This document shows, one piece after another, positions 4,797 through 22,008 of a stretch of 25,740 bases of DNA. The stretch is taken from positions 1-25,740 of the IMG/VR virus record IMGVR_UViG_3300002488_000070; one strand, given 5' to 3'. The translations under genes and the position numbers were made by a program. The notes beneath the pieces are model-generated. The model saw only the letters and a program-made list of their open reading frames with translations, did not search any database and was not told where the DNA came from. How positions within the stretch are numbered: position 1 is the stretch's first letter; every line of letters begins with the position of its first letter. Source of the DNA: a virus.

Positions 4797-7700
4797 TTAT
4801 CTCAACGCTAGTATTAAGGGTGTTAATTGTGCTTGAATTGCTCGGTTAAAATCTCTTCCTCGAATAGTAGATGTAGTTTGATCAACAGTTAAACCATCGC
4901 CAATTCTAAAATTACCCTTTTGATCTGTACTTGTAAATGGACATTGACCTCCATTTATTGCAACTACTTCATTAGCAGTAATAGGTTCACCACCTTGGAA
5001 GGGGTTCGCTTTATTTATATCGGTACCAGCACCGATATATTCAAATGAATGAGAACTGGTAATAATTCTACTGAGTCTAACTAATTCTATCTCAGTTCCA
5101 GCATTAATAGAATATGGAATAAACTGATCAAATGTTACAGTCGTTAGTCCAACAGTATCTGTTGGTTCAGTAGCAACACTTACAGTATATAGAATAGGAT
5201 CTGTATCTGCAACTAATTGTGCAGATCCACCACCACTAATACTAACTTCAAATGATTGATTTGGTAAGAAATTTCTACCACTTGCAATAACATCAATCGA
5301 AGTAATGGTACCAGCAGCACTTACATTTGCAGAAAATTCTGCACCAATAGATTCTGGTCCTAAAGGTCTTGGAACAGTAACAACTGGAGGTGCTGCAGCA
5401 TTATATTCTCCTGGTATTCCTCCATCTACAACAGTAATACCTCTAATTAATTGTAGAGGTGCAGTTAAAATACCAGTTACTGAAGTATCAAGATAATCTG
5501 CTAAATTAATCTTAAAGAATAAACCTTGCCCATCAAATGGTTTTCTAAATCTATCAAATTTATCAGTAACATCAATAAGCTCAAAAACATCACTATCAGC
5601 AGGAGCAGTAGTAAATAATTCTCCTGTAAATTCTGTTGCACCAACACCATTAGAATATAAACCAAAATTACCAAATGATGAATTTGAGTTTGTTAAATCA
5701 CATTGCCCTCCAGTATCACAATAAATTGCAATATCACAAGCAATAGTAAATATAGAAACTAATTGAGCATATCCATTATTTGTAATTGATACACCAATAC
5801 CATTCTGATTGTATTGTGTAAAGGCATCACAAACAAAGGATTTAAAGTCTTGTCCTAGATTATTAGTACCACTGAAATCTGCATTAGCATGATTACCATC
5901 AATCCTCATACCAACACTACCTGACATAAAGTTAGTACAGTTCCTAATATATGGAGATTTCCATCTACCAGTAGAACCTTCATTTGCTGGTCCCAATGCA
6001 ATATATCCAGTGCTTGCCTGATCTGCTGTAACTAATGGAGGGAAAGCAACTGCTGCACCAGTATGATTATATGAAACTCCACCTTGATTATCAGTAGGAG
6101 GACCAGAGAAGTTAAGATTCTGAATCAAACATCCTCGTCTAACATGAAATACATCCTTATCTCTATTTGAAGGGATAATAGTTACCAATCTTAAATCCTC
6201 ACCAGATACAGAAACATCAGTTCTTAATCCAATTGGATTATTTTCAGTATAACTACCAGATCTAACAATAATAGTATCTCCTTCTTTTGCTATAGATGCA
6301 GCAGCACCAACAGTTCTCTTTGCATCACCTTCCAATAATCCAGTGTTACTATCATTACCATCCATAGTAACCCAAATAGCATTATCAGTCTCAACACCAG
6401 ATGGTCTCCAAGATACACCAGCACCAACTGCAGATAATCTATAATCATTCTTACTTTTACTAACATCAAATCCAACACTGTTTAACTTATCAATAACAGA
6501 ATTTTCTAACTCTAATGTTCCTTCAATTCTTGCATTATTACCAACATTTAAATTCTCTTCAATACCAACACCACCTTCTTGTACTACAAGAGCACCAGTA
6601 TCCTTATTAGTTGATGATTGATTAGAACCTATCCTTACATTACCACCAACATTTACATTTTCTTCAACACCAAGACCACCTTCTTCTACTACAAGAGCAC
6701 CAGTATCTTTATCAGTTGATGATGTATTTTTCCCAATATTAACATTTCCTGCAACACCAATACCACCTACTTCTACTAGTAGAGCACCAGTAGTGCTATT
6801 TGTTGATTCTAAGGCAGATTGTAATTTAGTTTGTCCACCAACAATTAATTTTTTAACAATACCAACACCACCATCCATTTGCACAGAAGCAAATGTTTTT
6901 GTTGATGCATCAGTAGTATCATTAAATGTAGTCTTTCCATCTACATCTAGAGTATTGTTAAGTGTTGTAGCACCATCTACATCTAAAGTATTATTTAAAG
7001 TTGTAGCACCATCTACATCTAGAGTATTGTTAAGTGTTGTAGCACCATCTACATCTAGAGTATTGTTAAGTGTTGTAGCACCATCTACATTTAATGTAGA
7101 ATCTAAATCAGTTGCTTGATTTACAGTTAAAGTTCCTTTAAGTAAAGTATTACCATCAACTGTCAATAATGAATCAAATTGTACATTACCAGTAGCATGA
7201 AGAGTTCCTGATATATCTAAATCATATGTTGGATTAGCATTCTTAATACCAACCTTAGTCATCCTAAAGATTGGAGAAGTATTAGTATTATTAGTGAATC
7301 CCCATAAATCTTGAGATTGTATCCTAGCAATCATTGTAGGATTATCTGGATCTGGTATAGGAAGTATAGTATCAGTACCTAAACCTAAACTATTAATTTG
7401 CACATAATTCATTGTTGCAAATGTTTGTGCAGTTCCAGGATTTGGTATATAAACACCTTCATCTTGAACAAAAATACCATGTAAATCAATTGGTGATGCC
7501 TCAATCCATCGGACACCATCAACATCCATATTCAAGTAGTATCCATTAACACCAGGAGATTCTGCAGAGTCATATAAATGACCATCCAATCTCATTGGTC
7601 CTAATACATCAAGTTTTACTTCACCAGTAAAGGAGGTATTCATACCCCCAAATGTAGCAGGGTCAGTTGTTCCAATACCAACTGTACCTAGTCCAGTAAT

Positions 7701-8108
7701 TACAACAGCTCTATCATCTGTTTCAAGAGAATTGCCAATTGTATTTGGACCACCAACTTGGAATCTTTGGAATGGTGCTGTATTTGCTATACCAACTCTA
7801 CCAGGAAAATGTCCAGTATTAATACCAGTGAATACAGTTCCACCAACACCAACATCTAACCTACGTCGAACTAATAAATTATAAACATCTAAATCTGCTT
7901 CAATAAAGACATCATCTTTAAAGGTAGCAATACCACCAAACCAAGAATTCTCTAAAACCTTTAAATTTTTTACTACTAGATTATCAGGAAGTGTTAAATC
8001 TTGTCCTGCATAATCATAATATAATTTTCCATAGATATAAACATTTTCAAATACAGAATCTCCAATATGCGAATTTTCATTTCCTATAGGTAAATTGGTA
8101 TCAGACAT
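4797..8108 (-). CDS. Tail fibre / baseplate-associated protein with beta-helix domain (1103 aa)
   Basis: This is the first gene of the fibre block, with a strong ribosome site (TAGGAGGATAAT before the ATG). The domain order seen is as follows: a conserved N-terminus (MSDTNLPIGNENSHIG, roughly residues 1-80) likely to anchor to the virion; fibre-type strands with VGIGTTDPA motifs; five 12-residue TTLNNTLDVDGA repeats (about residues 330-390); three TGALVVEEGGxGVEENVNVGG units (about 430-520); and from about residue 575 (AIWVTMDGNDSNTG) to 830 a segment resembling a pectate-lyase-like right-handed beta-helix, with DxGNDxNTG and a stacked V/I ladder. The C-terminal end (GNFRIGDGLTVDQ ... FNRAIQAQLTPLILALR) is a motif I recall from cyanophage structural proteins. 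The likely role is a long or short tail fibre, possibly with glycan-binding or glycan-degrading ability. No catalytic residues can be assigned by eye. Confidence 0.7.
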   Translation of the reverse strand: MSDTNLPIGNENSHIGDSVFENVYIYGKLYYDYAGQDLTLPDNLVVKNLKVLENSWFGGIATFKDDVFIEADLDVYNLLVRRRLDVGVGGTVFTGINTGHFPGRVGIANTAPFQRFQVGGPNTIGNSLETDDRAVVITGLGTVGIGTTDPATFGGMNTSFTGEVKLDVLGPMRLDGHLYDSAESPGVNGYYLNMDVDGVRWIEASPIDLHGIFVQDEGVYIPNPGTAQTFATMNYVQINSLGLGTDTILPIPDPDNPTMIARIQSQDLWGFTNNTNTSPIFRMTKVGIKNANPTYDLDISGTLHATGNVQFDSLLTVDGNTLLKGTLTVNQATDLDSTLNVDGATTLNNTLDVDGATTLNNTLDVDGATTLNNTLDVDGATTLNNTLDVDGKTTFNDTTDASTKTFASVQMDGGVGIVKKLIVGGQTKLQSALESTNSTTGALLVEVGGIGVAGNVNIGKNTSSTDKDTGALVVEEGGLGVEENVNVGGNVRIGSNQSSTNKDTGALVVQEGGVGIEENLNVGNNARIEGTLELENSVIDKLNSVGFDVSKSKNDYRLSAVGAGVSWRPSGVETDNAIWVTMDGNDSNTGLLEGDAKRTVGAAASIAKEGDTIIVRSGSYTENNPIGLRTDVSVSGEDLRLVTIIPSNRDKDVFHVRRGCLIQNLNFSGPPTDNQGGVSYNHTGAAVAFPPLVTADQASTGYIALGPANEGSTGRWKSPYIRNCTNFMSGSVGMRIDGNHANADFSGTNNLGQDFKSFVCDAFTQYNQNGIGVSITNNGYAQLVSIFTIACDIAIYCDTGGQCDLTNSNSSFGNFGLYSNGVGATEFTGELFTTAPADSDVFELIDVTDKFDRFRKPFDGQGLFFKINLADYLDTSVTGILTAPLQLIRGITVVDGGIPGEYNAAAPPVVTVPRPLGPESIGAEFSANVSAAGTITSIDVIASGRNFLPNQSFEVSISGGGSAQLVADTDPILYTVSVATEPTDTVGLTTVTFDQFIPYSINAGTEIELVRLSRIITSSHSFEYIGAGTDINKANPFQGGEPITANEVVAINGGQCPFTSTDQKGNFRIGDGLTVDQTTSTIRGRDFNRAIQAQLTPLILALR
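6535..6810 (-). repeat. Three TGALVV-EGG-VEEN units in the 1103-aa fibre
   Basis: The protein units have the pattern S-T-(K)-D-TGAL(V/L)V-E-GG-G-(V/I)-EN(V/L)NVG. They are spaced 29 and 35 residues apart, and the DNA copies are recognisably similar on the minus strand. A related single unit lies in the downstream fibre gene near 1245-1310. Confidence 0.75.
6937..7116 (-). repeat. 36-bp tandem repeat, five copies (12-residue TTLNNTLDVDGA unit)
   Basis: Copies start at 6937, 6973, 7009, 7045 and 7081 with an exact 36-bp period. Copies 1, 3 and 4 are essentially identical, copy 2 differs at several bases, and copy 5 is degenerate. Each unit adds 12 residues, so the fibre can change length in frame by slippage or recombination. 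Confidence 0.9.
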
Positions 8109-13811: not shown

Positions 13812-15161
13812 TTATACTATCCCGTGTAATGCTGGTGTTAACATCATATATTCATTCAAAGGATTGATAGAACTAATATAAGCAACTTCTGTTGATTCTG
13901 GTAATGAGACTTTCTTTTCTGGTGGTTTAACTTTAACAGGTGGTAAATCTTCTACTATTACTTTTGTTTCATCAACTTCTAAATTAGGGAGTCCGTCCTT
14001 AGACCCAGTTAGTTGGTTTTTATTAAATTTAGCCTGTGATGCTAGTGCAGCTACAGTTAATGGGATTGATGTAGCTGAACCCCAACCTGGTAGGAAACTT
14101 GCTGCAGCACTAGCAAAAAATAAACCAGCACTTGTTTTATCTCCCTTTACTAGGCTTTTAATACCTTCAAATCCATCAACAACAGCACCAATGATAGGTA
14201 AAGAACCTGCTAAGATTCTTTTTGTAGTTACCTTTGTCGCTACCTTTGTTCCTGTTCCTGTCAATACATCTCCAGTAATCTGACTAGTTGCTTTACTTTT
14301 AACACCTTGATTGAACATTCTTTTCCACCAAGGTCCCTTTAAATTCTTTACAACTTTACCACCTGTTGTAGTTATTTTAGTTCCTGTTGATACGGTTTTA
14401 GCTCCTTTAAATAATCCAAAACCTGAACCTACAAACTTTATTGCTTTCCATACACCATATATTTTTCTTACAAAACTTGATAGAAGAAATATACCACCTA
14501 TTCCAGCAAGCCATTTCCAATTTTTTGCCGTAAATGACAAAGTATCTTTAATCTTATCTTTCGTCTTTGGATCTAAATTTTTCCACCAAGTAAGAGCAGC
14601 ATTACCAGCAATACCAGCACCCAATATTGTGACAAAATTAATTATTTTATCAAAAACATTTTTAAATGGAGAAACAACACTAGCTGCTACTCCTTTAATA
14701 CCTGCACCTAAACCTTTACCTATACCCTTTAATCCTTCTATACTCTTCTCTTTAAGATTTCTCTTTCTTTCTTCATTTGCTTTTTTCTTCTTTTTATTTT
14801 CTGCATCTTGTTCACTAATTCTATTACTAAAATCTAATGCAAGTGCATTACCAATATCTTCAAGAGTAGAACTTATTTCTGCTAACTTATCTTCATTACC
14901 ACCAAAAGGTTTTTGTGCCTTTAAAACATTCTTCAAAAGAGTAATCTTCTTTTCGTTCGCAGCAACCCTTTTCTCCAAAGGATCAAAATCATTTAATGGA
15001 AATATTTTTTCAGTACTAAGAGCACCACCACTACGAGCAAGAGCACCACCTTTCTTCGGAACTATGGCACCACCCTTTCCACCACCATTAAAGATGGTTT
15101 TCATATTGGTGACATTTAGTTTTATGTTAGAAGGTATTACTTCTGGGTTAATTGCTGGCAC
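13812..15161 (-). CDS. Tape measure candidate (449 aa)
   Basis: The start is GTG at 15161, overlapping the end of the 57-aa frame by 14 bases; the next in-frame ATG is 19 codons in. The protein has a Gly-rich N-terminus, a charged coiled-coil-like region (about 55-145, with a KKKKKANEERKRN stretch), then Gly/Ala-rich hydrophobic segments at about 170-190, 215-240 and 365-390, and a Pro/Lys-rich end. Long helices plus membrane-prone segments are typical of tape measure proteins, which fill the tail tube and may insert in the host membrane. The gene follows the tail chaperone genes directly and precedes the hub, the classic tape-measure slot. It is shorter than T4 gp29 (590 aa). An alternative is that it shares that role with the 283-aa protein. 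Confidence 0.55.
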   Translation of the reverse strand: MPAINPEVIPSNIKLNVTNMKTIFNGGGKGGAIVPKKGGALARSGGALSTEKIFPLNDFDPLEKRVAANEKKITLLKNVLKAQKPFGGNEDKLAEISSTLEDIGNALALDFSNRISEQDAENKKKKKANEERKRNLKEKSIEGLKGIGKGLGAGIKGVAASVVSPFKNVFDKIINFVTILGAGIAGNAALTWWKNLDPKTKDKIKDTLSFTAKNWKWLAGIGGIFLLSSFVRKIYGVWKAIKFVGSGFGLFKGAKTVSTGTKITTTGGKVVKNLKGPWWKRMFNQGVKSKATSQITGDVLTGTGTKVATKVTTKRILAGSLPIIGAVVDGFEGIKSLVKGDKTSAGLFFASAAASFLPGWGSATSIPLTVAALASQAKFNKNQLTGSKDGLPNLEVDETKVIVEDLPPVKVKPPEKKVSLPESTEVAYISSINPLNEYMMLTPALHGIV

Positions 15162-15321
15162 TTTGTTTGAGATTCTCTTCGTCGATATACTGTTTTAATA
15201 AAGTCACATAAACTTCCTTTTCCCAAGGCATCATATTTTCTATCTCTGTTAATGAGTATTTATGGTGTTGCATCAAGGCAAAGTTAACCTTATAGTATGA
15301 CTCAAGACTGGTATGAGCCAT
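15148..15321 (-). CDS. Short ORF, T-domain-like part of a tail assembly chaperone (57 aa), probably expressed by -1 frameshift from gp26
   Basis: This 57-residue frame runs from the ATG at 15321 to TAA at 15148, two bases after the gp26 stop. It reads MAHTSLESYYKVNFALMQHH, KYSLTEIENMMPWEKEVYVT, LLKQYIDEENLKQSASN. The pattern Y-S-L-x-E-I-x-x-M-x-W-E-x-x-V-Y-x-x-LL is like the C-terminal T part of GT-type tail chaperones and gp51-position proteins of marine T4-like phages. The ATG lacks a nearby Shine-Dalgarno and sits inside a small hairpin. The frame is open upstream into the slippery site in gp26, so a fusion of about 299 residues is possible. It overlaps the tape-measure start by 14 bases. 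The coding call is strong; expression by frameshift is inferred. Confidence 0.75.
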   Translation of the reverse strand: MAHTSLESYYKVNFALMQHHKYSLTEIENMMPWEKEVYVTLLKQYIDEENLKQSASN

Positions 15322-15351
15322 ACTTAGGTGAAAAAACTTGCCAATCCCTCC
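15311..15351 (-). promoter_or_regulatory. Putative programmed -1 ribosomal frameshift signal
   Basis: In transcript order the elements are: GGAGGG at 15351-15346 (Shine-Dalgarno-like, inside gp26 codons), 9 nt, the heptamer T TTT TTC at 15336-15330 in the correct phase for gp26 codons TTT and TTC, 6 nt including the gp26 stop, then a hairpin GTATG-GCT-CATAC at 15323-15311. An alternative stem pairs AGTATG with CATACT further downstream. These are the three element types of the E. coli dnaX -1 frameshift site. Shifting by -1 gives ...ASFF-HLS-MAHTS..., in frame with the 57-aa ORF and with no stop between. Confidence 0.65.
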
Positions 15352-16046
15352 AAGACCACTTCTGATTCAACTCCAGTTGTTGGATTTGTAACTTTGACTT
15401 TATGAGAAAGTTTAGGCATTGTCTCAAAGAACTTTTCAATAGTTTTAAATTGCTTACTATTTAATCCTTCTATAAACTCTTCTAATTCCTTTTTAGTTGA
15501 ATCAGAAGCATCCCAACTCTCTTCTTCATCATAAATCATTTCAATAGAATTAGTAATCATATTTAATGACCTATCAACCTCACTATTATCACTACCAGTA
15601 TCAAAATTACTTTCAATAAACTGATCAAATGATGGATACTTAAGTTTCATAGAATATTGATCATCAAGTTTGATAGTATTCTTATGTCCTCTGGTTTTTT
15701 GAACTTTAATAGCATCAATGTTAATTTCCATCTCAACAGATGTTTTATCATCATCAGGACAAGTCAAATTAACTTCAACAGTTTCACCAACTGACTTTGA
15801 ACGAACATTTAAGAATAAGTATTCAATATCAAAAGTAGCAAGTTTAGTAACATCAATTCCTTTTGTAATAATACATTCATTTAAAATTTGAACCACAGCA
15901 TTTGCTATCTGCTTAGTATCTTCAGTTTCTAATGCAAGTATAAGTATCTTCTCTTCTCTTACAAGAAAAGGACGATATTTAATTTTTTTTCCAGTAGAAG
16001 GAATAACTAACTCATAAGTTGGAGTATTAATCTTTGGTAATGGCAT
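15324..16046 (-). CDS. 26: gp26-type baseplate hub subunit / tail assembly chaperone (240 aa)
   Basis: The sequence starts MPLPKINTPTYELVIPSTGK with KIKYRPFLVREEKILILALE, the signature opening of the T4 gp26 baseplate family (a Y-E-L-x-x-P-S-T/G-x-x-x-x-x-R-P-F-L-V-K/R-E-E-K-x-L-L pattern). LFLNVRSKSVGE and L-T-C-P follow. The length is near T4 gp26 (208 aa). The C-terminal ~90 residues are helical and acidic, ending VVLEGLASFFT. The gene has its own TATAAATA late promoter. In T4, gp26 is needed for hub assembly. The position directly before a small T-like frame and a tape-measure candidate, with a slippery site in its last codons, suggests it acts as a G-type chaperone. Confidence 0.8.
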   Translation of the reverse strand: MPLPKINTPTYELVIPSTGKKIKYRPFLVREEKILILALETEDTKQIANAVVQILNECIITKGIDVTKLATFDIEYLFLNVRSKSVGETVEVNLTCPDDDKTSVEMEINIDAIKVQKTRGHKNTIKLDDQYSMKLKYPSFDQFIESNFDTGSDNSEVDRSLNMITNSIEMIYDEEESWDASDSTKKELEEFIEGLNSKQFKTIEKFFETMPKLSHKVKVTNPTTGVESEVVLEGLASFFT

Positions 16047-16087: not shown

Positions 16088-16696
16088 CTAACTTCTTGAT
16101 ACAGTATATCTATCATAGTTAAAGCTGACTGTAACTTTCATTAAATCTGCTGTTCCATATGTAACAGGTAAAGATGTAATAGATTTAGGAAAAGCATTCT
16201 TAAATTCATACATCAATGTTCTTTCAATATTCTTTTCAAACTTAGTAATAGTCATTGTATTAGCTTTATAATCATCTGGATATCTAAATCTTCTATAAAA
16301 TGCCTTTTCGTCAAGATTAATATTTGCACCACTAGAAATATAATCCATCCATCCTTCAAAAATACTTAAAGAGGTATAATCTTCATCAACATAAAAAGTA
16401 AAATCAATATCAGTATATAAACGAGTATGTGCAAACTCTTGCGGTACTCCCATAAAATTATCCTTTACTTCCCCTGTTGCGAATGCACTAGCAGGTAATG
16501 ATGCTTCCGAACAAAGTATCCCTGCATTTCTAGATAGAAAAATATCAACATTATCAAGTCCAGATCTTTTAAGATAATCAGTTATAGTTTTATTCAAAGT
16601 TGAAAAATGAACTTGATATTGATTTGTTAACGACAGCTTGCCAAGTTTTTCCTTGACCTCATCCATCGTGATTCTTTGTACTATACCCTTTGCCAC
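16088..16696 (-). CDS. Tail-tube-fold baseplate protein, gp54-like (202 aa)
   Basis: The start is GTG at 16696 (GTG GCA AAG) with an AAGG site. The C-terminal 100 residues show the gp19/gp54 tail-tube pattern: IDFTFYVDEDYTSLSIFEGW (an F-x-V-x-x-D-x-x-S-L-x-x-F-x-x-W helix), DEKAFYRRFRYPDDYKA, a strand pair, then YEFKNAFPKSITSLPVTY and LMKVTVSFNYDRY. The last block is the typical 'F-P-x-x-I-x-x-x-x-x-x-Y ... V-x-F-x-Y-D-x-Y' end of tube proteins. At 202 aa it is shorter than T4 gp54 (320 aa) and about tube-protein size. The context (gp26 downstream, gp4 and gp48 divergent) favours the baseplate-tube initiator over the main tube protein. The exact T4 number is uncertain. Confidence 0.65.
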   Translation of the reverse strand: MAKGIVQRITMDEVKEKLGKLSLTNQYQVHFSTLNKTITDYLKRSGLDNVDIFLSRNAGILCSEASLPASAFATGEVKDNFMGVPQEFAHTRLYTDIDFTFYVDEDYTSLSIFEGWMDYISSGANINLDEKAFYRRFRYPDDYKANTMTITKFEKNIERTLMYEFKNAFPKSITSLPVTYGTADLMKVTVSFNYDRYTVSRS

Positions 16697-21201: not shown

Positions 21202-21416
21202 TAACCTTCTTCCACTGGGAGTTCTTCTCCACCACCATCAACTGGTGCTTCTTCAGTAGCTTCAGTAGTTTCTTCTTTACTTTCTTCAATTTGACTAAGC
21301 ACATCAATTGCACCTTGAAGTCTCAATACAGTTGCCTGACCAGTTGCGACTTGTTGTTGAACTGTAGTCAATTGTTCCTGTAAGTTCTTGAGAACTTCAC
21401 TATTATCAAGAGCCAT
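21201..21416 (-). CDS. Small coiled-coil protein of unknown function (71 aa)
   Basis: A 71-residue protein with a clear heptad pattern in the first 45 residues (NSEVLKNLQEQLTTVQQQVA ... TVLRLQGAIDVLSQIEE) and an acidic Glu/Thr-rich end. The ATG at 21416 has the strongest ribosome site in this module (AAAGGAGGT 8 bases before), overlapping the end of gp59. It has no recognisable enzymatic motif. Small Gln/Leu coiled-coil proteins at this position are common in marine T4-like phages; the role is unknown. Confidence 0.6.
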   Translation of the reverse strand: MALDNSEVLKNLQEQLTTVQQQVATGQATVLRLQGAIDVLSQIEESKEETTEATEEAPVDGGGEELPVEEG

Positions 21417-22008
21417 TACTAATAACCTCCTTTAGAATTTTTTTGTAGTTGTATACATTGATATTTATGAAGGGAATATATTTTCTGATTTTAAGACTTA
21501 CGGTTTCCCACACAGGGTCTGTAAGTTTATTATCGAAATCTTTTACGAAGGAAAAAACTTTTTCCATAATCGTAAGTGTTTCTAGCGAAATCTCTCCACC
21601 CAGATATTTTTTTAGGATAACTGGATGTCCCTTCGAGCAATCGAATACTGTTTCTAATTCGTTCTCTGAGAGCAATTTCTCTGACTGTTCCTTGAATAAG
21701 TACGTCAAACTCTGTTTCCGTCTCATCCAGTCGGCGTAATTTCTTTCGCCAGAATTGATAATTTCTCCAATCCATAGATTTTGTGGGTTGTCTGCAATAA
21801 CGAAATTTGATAATAGAAAATCCAATATTTGTTGATCGGAATATTTCCTAGATGTTTTTTCAAACCAATACTTATCCTTTCGTTTATTAAAGGATGTCAT
21901 GGTTGCCCTTGACTTACCACCATACTTAAAAAAGTCAAATTTAGGATTAGTAAAATGACTTTTCATTGATAAGTATGTTCTATAAGTTTCAAATGGAGTC
22001 ACTTTCAT
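21406..22008 (-). CDS. 59: Helicase loader gp59 (200 aa)
   Basis: The N-terminal block MKVTPFETYRTYLSMKSHFT, KFDFFKYGGKSRATMTSFNK and RKDKYWFEKTSRKYSDQQIL with LLSNFVIADNPQNLWIGEI follows the order of T4 gp59: Y-x-x-Y-x-x-x-K-x-H-x-x-x-x-x-x-D-x-x-K-Y ... K-R-x-D-K-Y-x-F-x-K-x-x-x-K-Y ... (L)-x-S-N-x-V-x-x-x-x-x-x-W-I-G-(E/D). The length matches (T4 217 aa). In T4 it loads gp41 helicase on gp32-coated ssDNA at forks. It lies in the gp33-gp59-gp32 module, with the oxygenase stop overlapping its start (TAATG). Confidence 0.85.
   Translation of the reverse strand: MKVTPFETYRTYLSMKSHFTNPKFDFFKYGGKSRATMTSFNKRKDKYWFEKTSRKYSDQQILDFLLSNFVIADNPQNLWIGEIINSGERNYADWMRRKQSLTYLFKEQSEKLLSENELETVFDCSKGHPVILKKYLGGEISLETLTIMEKVFSFVKDFDNKLTDPVWETVSLKIRKYIPFININVYNYKKILKEVISNGS

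Follow-up and report, generated by a model that had tools for sequence, protein, structure and literature searches.

Very probably, gene gp26 of a marine T4-like phage encodes the short form of a chaperone, a -1 slip near its end gives a long form of 299 aa, and the pair would chaperone the tape measure protein. The analysis shows the sequence signals, the selection acting on them and, in several relatives, a T domain with no start of its own at the usual codon; we infer the slippage, its rate and the chaperone role.

The gp26 locus

The window, i.e. the whole stretch of DNA analysed, is the 25,740-base IMG/VR record IMGVR_UViG_3300002488_000070. The features of the locus are:

16088..16696, minus strand: tail tube gene, upstream of gp26 (phrog_45, 4.3e-43)
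15324..16046, minus strand: gp26, putative short chaperone form (TAC-N, 'G'-like), 240 aa (PF12322, 1.8e-73; phrog_150, 1.7e-81)
15346..15351, minus strand: GGAGGG, SD-like putative stimulator; 10 nt lie between its GGAGG core and the heptamer
15330..15336, minus strand: slippery heptamer T TTT TTC, in X XXY YYZ phase; identical in 58/58 non-redundant marine relatives; distant phages carry either this form or T TTT TTT
15294..15324, minus strand: stem-loop of 11 bp, a candidate stimulator that begins 5 nt past the heptamer (z -4.5 at -18.1 kcal/mol for the 55-nt segment)
15148..15330, minus strand: -1 frame of 60 codons, C-terminal 'T' domain, gp51-like (phrog_634, 8.2e-28; phrog_150 positions 239-278), open in readable relatives
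15148..15321, minus strand: the small ORF as it would be annotated from its ATG, 57 aa, without a ribosome site (SD-like motif in 0/58, no start codon in 7/58)
13812..15161, minus strand: probable tape measure (client) ORF, 449 aa, overlapping the end of the T frame, assigned by position and hydrophobic segments

The 3' end of gp26 reads GGA TTG GCA AGT TTT TTC ACC TAA, with the heptamer in the codon context AGT TTT TTC ACC TAA. A sequence-only reading of the window had proposed a frameshift here, and we confirm TTTTTTC in the correct phase at 15336-15330 (minus strand), the GGAGGG at 15351-15346, 9 nt before it, and a -1 frame with 60 open codons between the slip site and the stop at 15148-15150. 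The fusion, estimated there at about 299 aa, is 299 aa when computed. The TTT of the heptamer, described as four codons before the gp26 stop, is the third codon before it. Across the 26 window genes scanned there are 51 in-phase slippery-type heptamers, and among these only the gp26 site has a long -1 extension at the gene end (2 codons left, 60 open).

According to our model, the SD-like GGAGG would pair with the 16S rRNA 10 nt upstream of T TTT TTC, the 11-bp stem, 5 nt past the heptamer, would sit at the mRNA entrance, and a fraction of the ribosomes would slip back one base on T TTT TTC. The slipped ribosomes would then read ...ASFF-HLSMAHTSLESYY... to 15148, resulting in the 299-aa long form, gp26 plus the 'T' domain, with the predicted junction peptide ...ASFFHLSMAHTSLESYYK; ...FFRISMAHEDLESYYK.

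The gene order is tail tube, G, T and presumed tape measure. The tube is clear, and the 449-aa ORF is probably the tape measure. It resembles the annotated tape measure of HTVC008M only weakly, and comparing its profile with T4 gp29 and with annotated tape measures yielded nothing firm. In loci L002-L033 the length of the ORF 3' of the T frame varies widely, e.g. 368, 480, 546, 614 and 710 aa; some of these lengths may be clipped by locus ends. If this ORF is the tape measure, close relatives may differ in tail length.

Elsewhere, the gp26 family is annotated as baseplate hub, and the best isolate relatives of gp26 are cyanophages and marine single-cell viruses. The structure model of gp26 has a mean pLDDT of 86. 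Compared with 350,542 chains of known structure, the model comes closest to 2ob9, the HK97 tail assembly chaperone; with E 0.77 and probability 0.82 over 62 columns the match falls short of significance and no more than suggests a chaperone fold. Searching the sequences of solved structures with gp26 profiles yielded chance matches only.

Two other genes of the window deserve mention. The gene at 21406-22008 (minus strand) has an in-phase A AAT TTC at 21808, followed by 90 open -1 codons that overlap an ORF at 21530-21775, and 4797-8108 (minus strand) encodes a long tail protein in which 'TLNNTLDVDGAT' recurs in tandem.

The T domain and its start codon

In phrog_634 ('baseplate hub assembly catalyst', gp51) it is the C-terminal half that the T frame matches, and in the gp26 profile itself it matches positions 239-278; both parts are therefore one protein in some phages.

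For the comparison with relatives, the IMG/VR loci with a readable gene end, the window and three isolate records were reduced to 58 sequences with less than 85% nucleotide identity (mean pairwise identity 70%). The sequence-only reading had suggested checking whether relatives keep the heptamer, the SD-like site and the -1 frame. All are kept, the SD-like GAGG at its spacing in 51/58.

The main alternative, which we consider very improbable, needs no frameshift: the small ORF would be a gene in its own right (gp51), and ribosomes terminating on gp26 would re-initiate at its ATG. Databases annotate it as its own gene. In the window the gp26 stop is followed 2 nt later by this ATG, and the T domain alone could therefore also arise by coupled re-initiation. 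This codon is ATG in 51/58 sequences, and TAATG or TGATG overlaps exist in some distant phages. However, no SD-like motif is present 5-16 nt before it in any of the 58 sequences, which bears out the earlier remark that the ATG lacks a near ribosome site. In the other seven the codon is CTG, CTA, CTT or GTC, and since there is no start codon at that position the T domain needs the shift in these relatives. The junction ATG is also absent in several distant phages, e.g. HTVC008M, PX29 and IC12. Further, re-initiation leaves unexplained the fixed TTT-TTC, the SD-like site 10 nt upstream and the in-frame fusion in T4 gp51. Given the missing SD-like motifs and start codons, an independent start of the small frame was rejected as a general mechanism. 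Relatives that had lost the heptamer and kept the small ORF with its own ribosome site had been named as the case against frameshifting; several relatives instead lack the start codon.

In S-CAM1 (L093 1993-2176) the T domain is unannotated and the junction offers no start codon that could be used. It is also unannotated in the S-H9-1 and S-WAM2 records.

The heptamer, ending in TTC or TTT, is kept in Pelagibacter, Caulobacter, Aeromonas, Stenotrophomonas, Vibrio KVP40-type and Rhizobium phages. HTVC008M, PX29, IC12 and three IMG/VR loci (L103, L105, L107) have it in phase, ending in C or T, and lack an ATG close to the junction. In Cr30, Ps15, V09 and L110 the heptamer is accompanied by an ATG overlapping or adjoining the stop. 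The run is shortened in three Vibrio phages of or near Ackermannviridae (VAP7 G TTT TTC, Kuja C TTT TTC, K469 C TTT TTG). Vibrio phage YC (L089 2700-2720) has no slippery run before the T frame and a TAATG overlap is present; this phage may have switched to re-initiation. Scans with proteins of the Pelagibacter, Caulobacter, Aeromonas and Stenotrophomonas phages gained few new loci.

Signals around the heptamer

A GGAGG or GAGG ends exactly 10 nt 5' of the heptamer in 51/58 sequences, and the others have a nearby AGGG or AGGA. The Glu codon at this site is GAG in 51/57 cases, compared with 368/1305 (28%) elsewhere in gp26 (binomial 5e-22, if the sequences are independent). Pairing with the anti-SD is stronger than after synonymous resampling, mean -8.2 versus -6.0 kcal/mol, and exceeds the null mean in 48/58.

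On the downstream side, the sequence-only reading had placed a GTATG-GCT-CATAC hairpin. This hairpin can form, but with only -2.3 kcal/mol, and the same arm pairs into an 11-bp stem (15324-15314 with 15304-15294, 9-nt loop) of -14.7 kcal/mol for the stem alone. As the weaker fold, competing with the 11-bp stem, the 5-bp hairpin was replaced as the candidate stimulator. The folding z of the downstream segment is on average -2.6 over the 58 sequences. At least 9 of the 11 stem pairs form in 45/58 relatives, and the stem is lost or altered in 13/58. In the stem register 84% of the cells are paired, compared with 26-41% when one arm is slid by 1-3 bases. Covariation is modest, because most pairs hardly vary. 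The dnaX-type spacing, 10 nt for the SD-like site and 5 nt for the stem, is found here and both are kept in most relatives.

Slippage of the RNA polymerase on the T run, giving edited mRNAs that fuse the two frames, is even less probable than re-initiation. The T run that it needs is present and reaches 8 T in HTVC008M, but in the window and the 58-sequence set it is limited to 6 T and an invariant C comes next, and the conserved phase, the SD-like spacing and the stem fit ribosomal slippage.

Conservation of the terminal Phe codons

T TTT TTC is in phase in all IMG/VR loci with a readable gene end. All sequences have TTT as the penultimate and TTC as the last Phe codon (58/58 each), whereas Phe elsewhere in the 58 genes is TTT 415 and TTC 135 times, and the inner Phe-Phe pair 206/207 of gp26 varies (29:29 and 51:6). 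For TTC in 58/58, log10 P is about -35 if the sequences are independent and P is 2e-7 with 11 independent lineages; shared ancestry makes these values overstate the strength, and the inner Phe pair is a fair control. Because these terminal codons are conserved across relatives, the heptamer is far beyond chance.

A chance heptamer in an AT-rich Phe-Phe ending, conserved for its amino acids only, is thus the least probable explanation, close to negligible, and was rejected: the genome is indeed AT-rich and the window has many slippery-type heptamers, but the synonymous codons are fixed at the terminal pair and free at the inner one, and against the view that the sample holds few independent lineages stands the heptamer in distant phages.

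T4 genes 26 and 51

T4 gp26 (208 aa) matches phrog_150 at 14-235 and T4 gp51 (249 aa) at 13-280. T4 gp51 is therefore paralogous to gp26 and carries the T domain as an in-frame fusion. The two T4 genes, 26 (short) and 51 (long), are separate and located on opposite strands. They are homologous to both parts of the window's gene (PF12322, phrog_150, phrog_634) and also provide a short and an in-frame long form; however, T4 uses two separate genes without a slippery site, while the window has one gene with a -1 site. The heptamer is absent from both T4 genes. Full copies number two in T4 and a single one in thirteen other phage genomes searched, thus the frameshift and the two-gene arrangement look like alternatives. 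We lean towards a single-gene frameshift with three signals (SD-like, T TTT TTY, stem) as the ancestral state in T4-like phages, with T4 26/51 as a later duplication replacing it.

Discussion

Phage lambda makes gpG and gpGT by a -1 frameshift at the heptamer GGGAAAG, in the gene order tube, G, T, tape measure. The window resembles it in having a short form and a predicted long form in the -1 frame, and its order would be the same if the 449-aa ORF is the tape measure; it differs in its heptamer, TTTTTTC, and in its G part, which is 240 aa. Judged from the sequence, the locus most likely encodes a chaperone pair of the lambda G/GT type, and by analogy with gpG and gpGT the short and long forms would jointly chaperone the tape measure protein. 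E. coli dnaX has an SD-like site about 10 nt upstream, an X XXY YYZ heptamer and a stem about 5 nt downstream, i.e. the same three signals at similar spacing. In dnaX, however, the heptamer is A AAA AAG and the shift shortens the product, while in the window it lengthens it.

Vladimirov, Gautam and Davidson (Virology 2022, 566:9-15) reportedly found frameshifting conserved in several T4-like groups, with T4 using genes 26 and 51. The papers citing this work mention one short and one fused long gene in place of frameshifting in some T4-like phages (PMC10885494) and poly-T slippery signals in TAC-N genes of T4-like phages (PMC12846349). As far as can be told from them, the TAC-N and TAC-NC of Vladimirov et al. 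2022 are the same gene family with the same proposed two-form output. The sequence-only reading knew of no established G/GT shift in T4-like phages; by these accounts, Vladimirov et al. 2022 had identified such genes. With this precedent, the locus is a well-supported further case of a known chaperone type. The conservation of the SD-like site and the stem measured here may or may not already be part of that study. Pseudomonas phage Adele and other Vandenendeviridae also have a conserved -1 shift at the TAC-N end with a T-rich motif, but there the motif is GTTTTT and the phage family is different (PMC12846349).

For the annotation of marine T4-like phages, this means that the 'baseplate hub gp26' and the 'gp51 catalyst', the latter sometimes unannotated, most likely belong to a single gene whose two products are the chaperone pair for the tape measure. 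The locus shows how T4 may have come to divide the job between genes 26 and 51.
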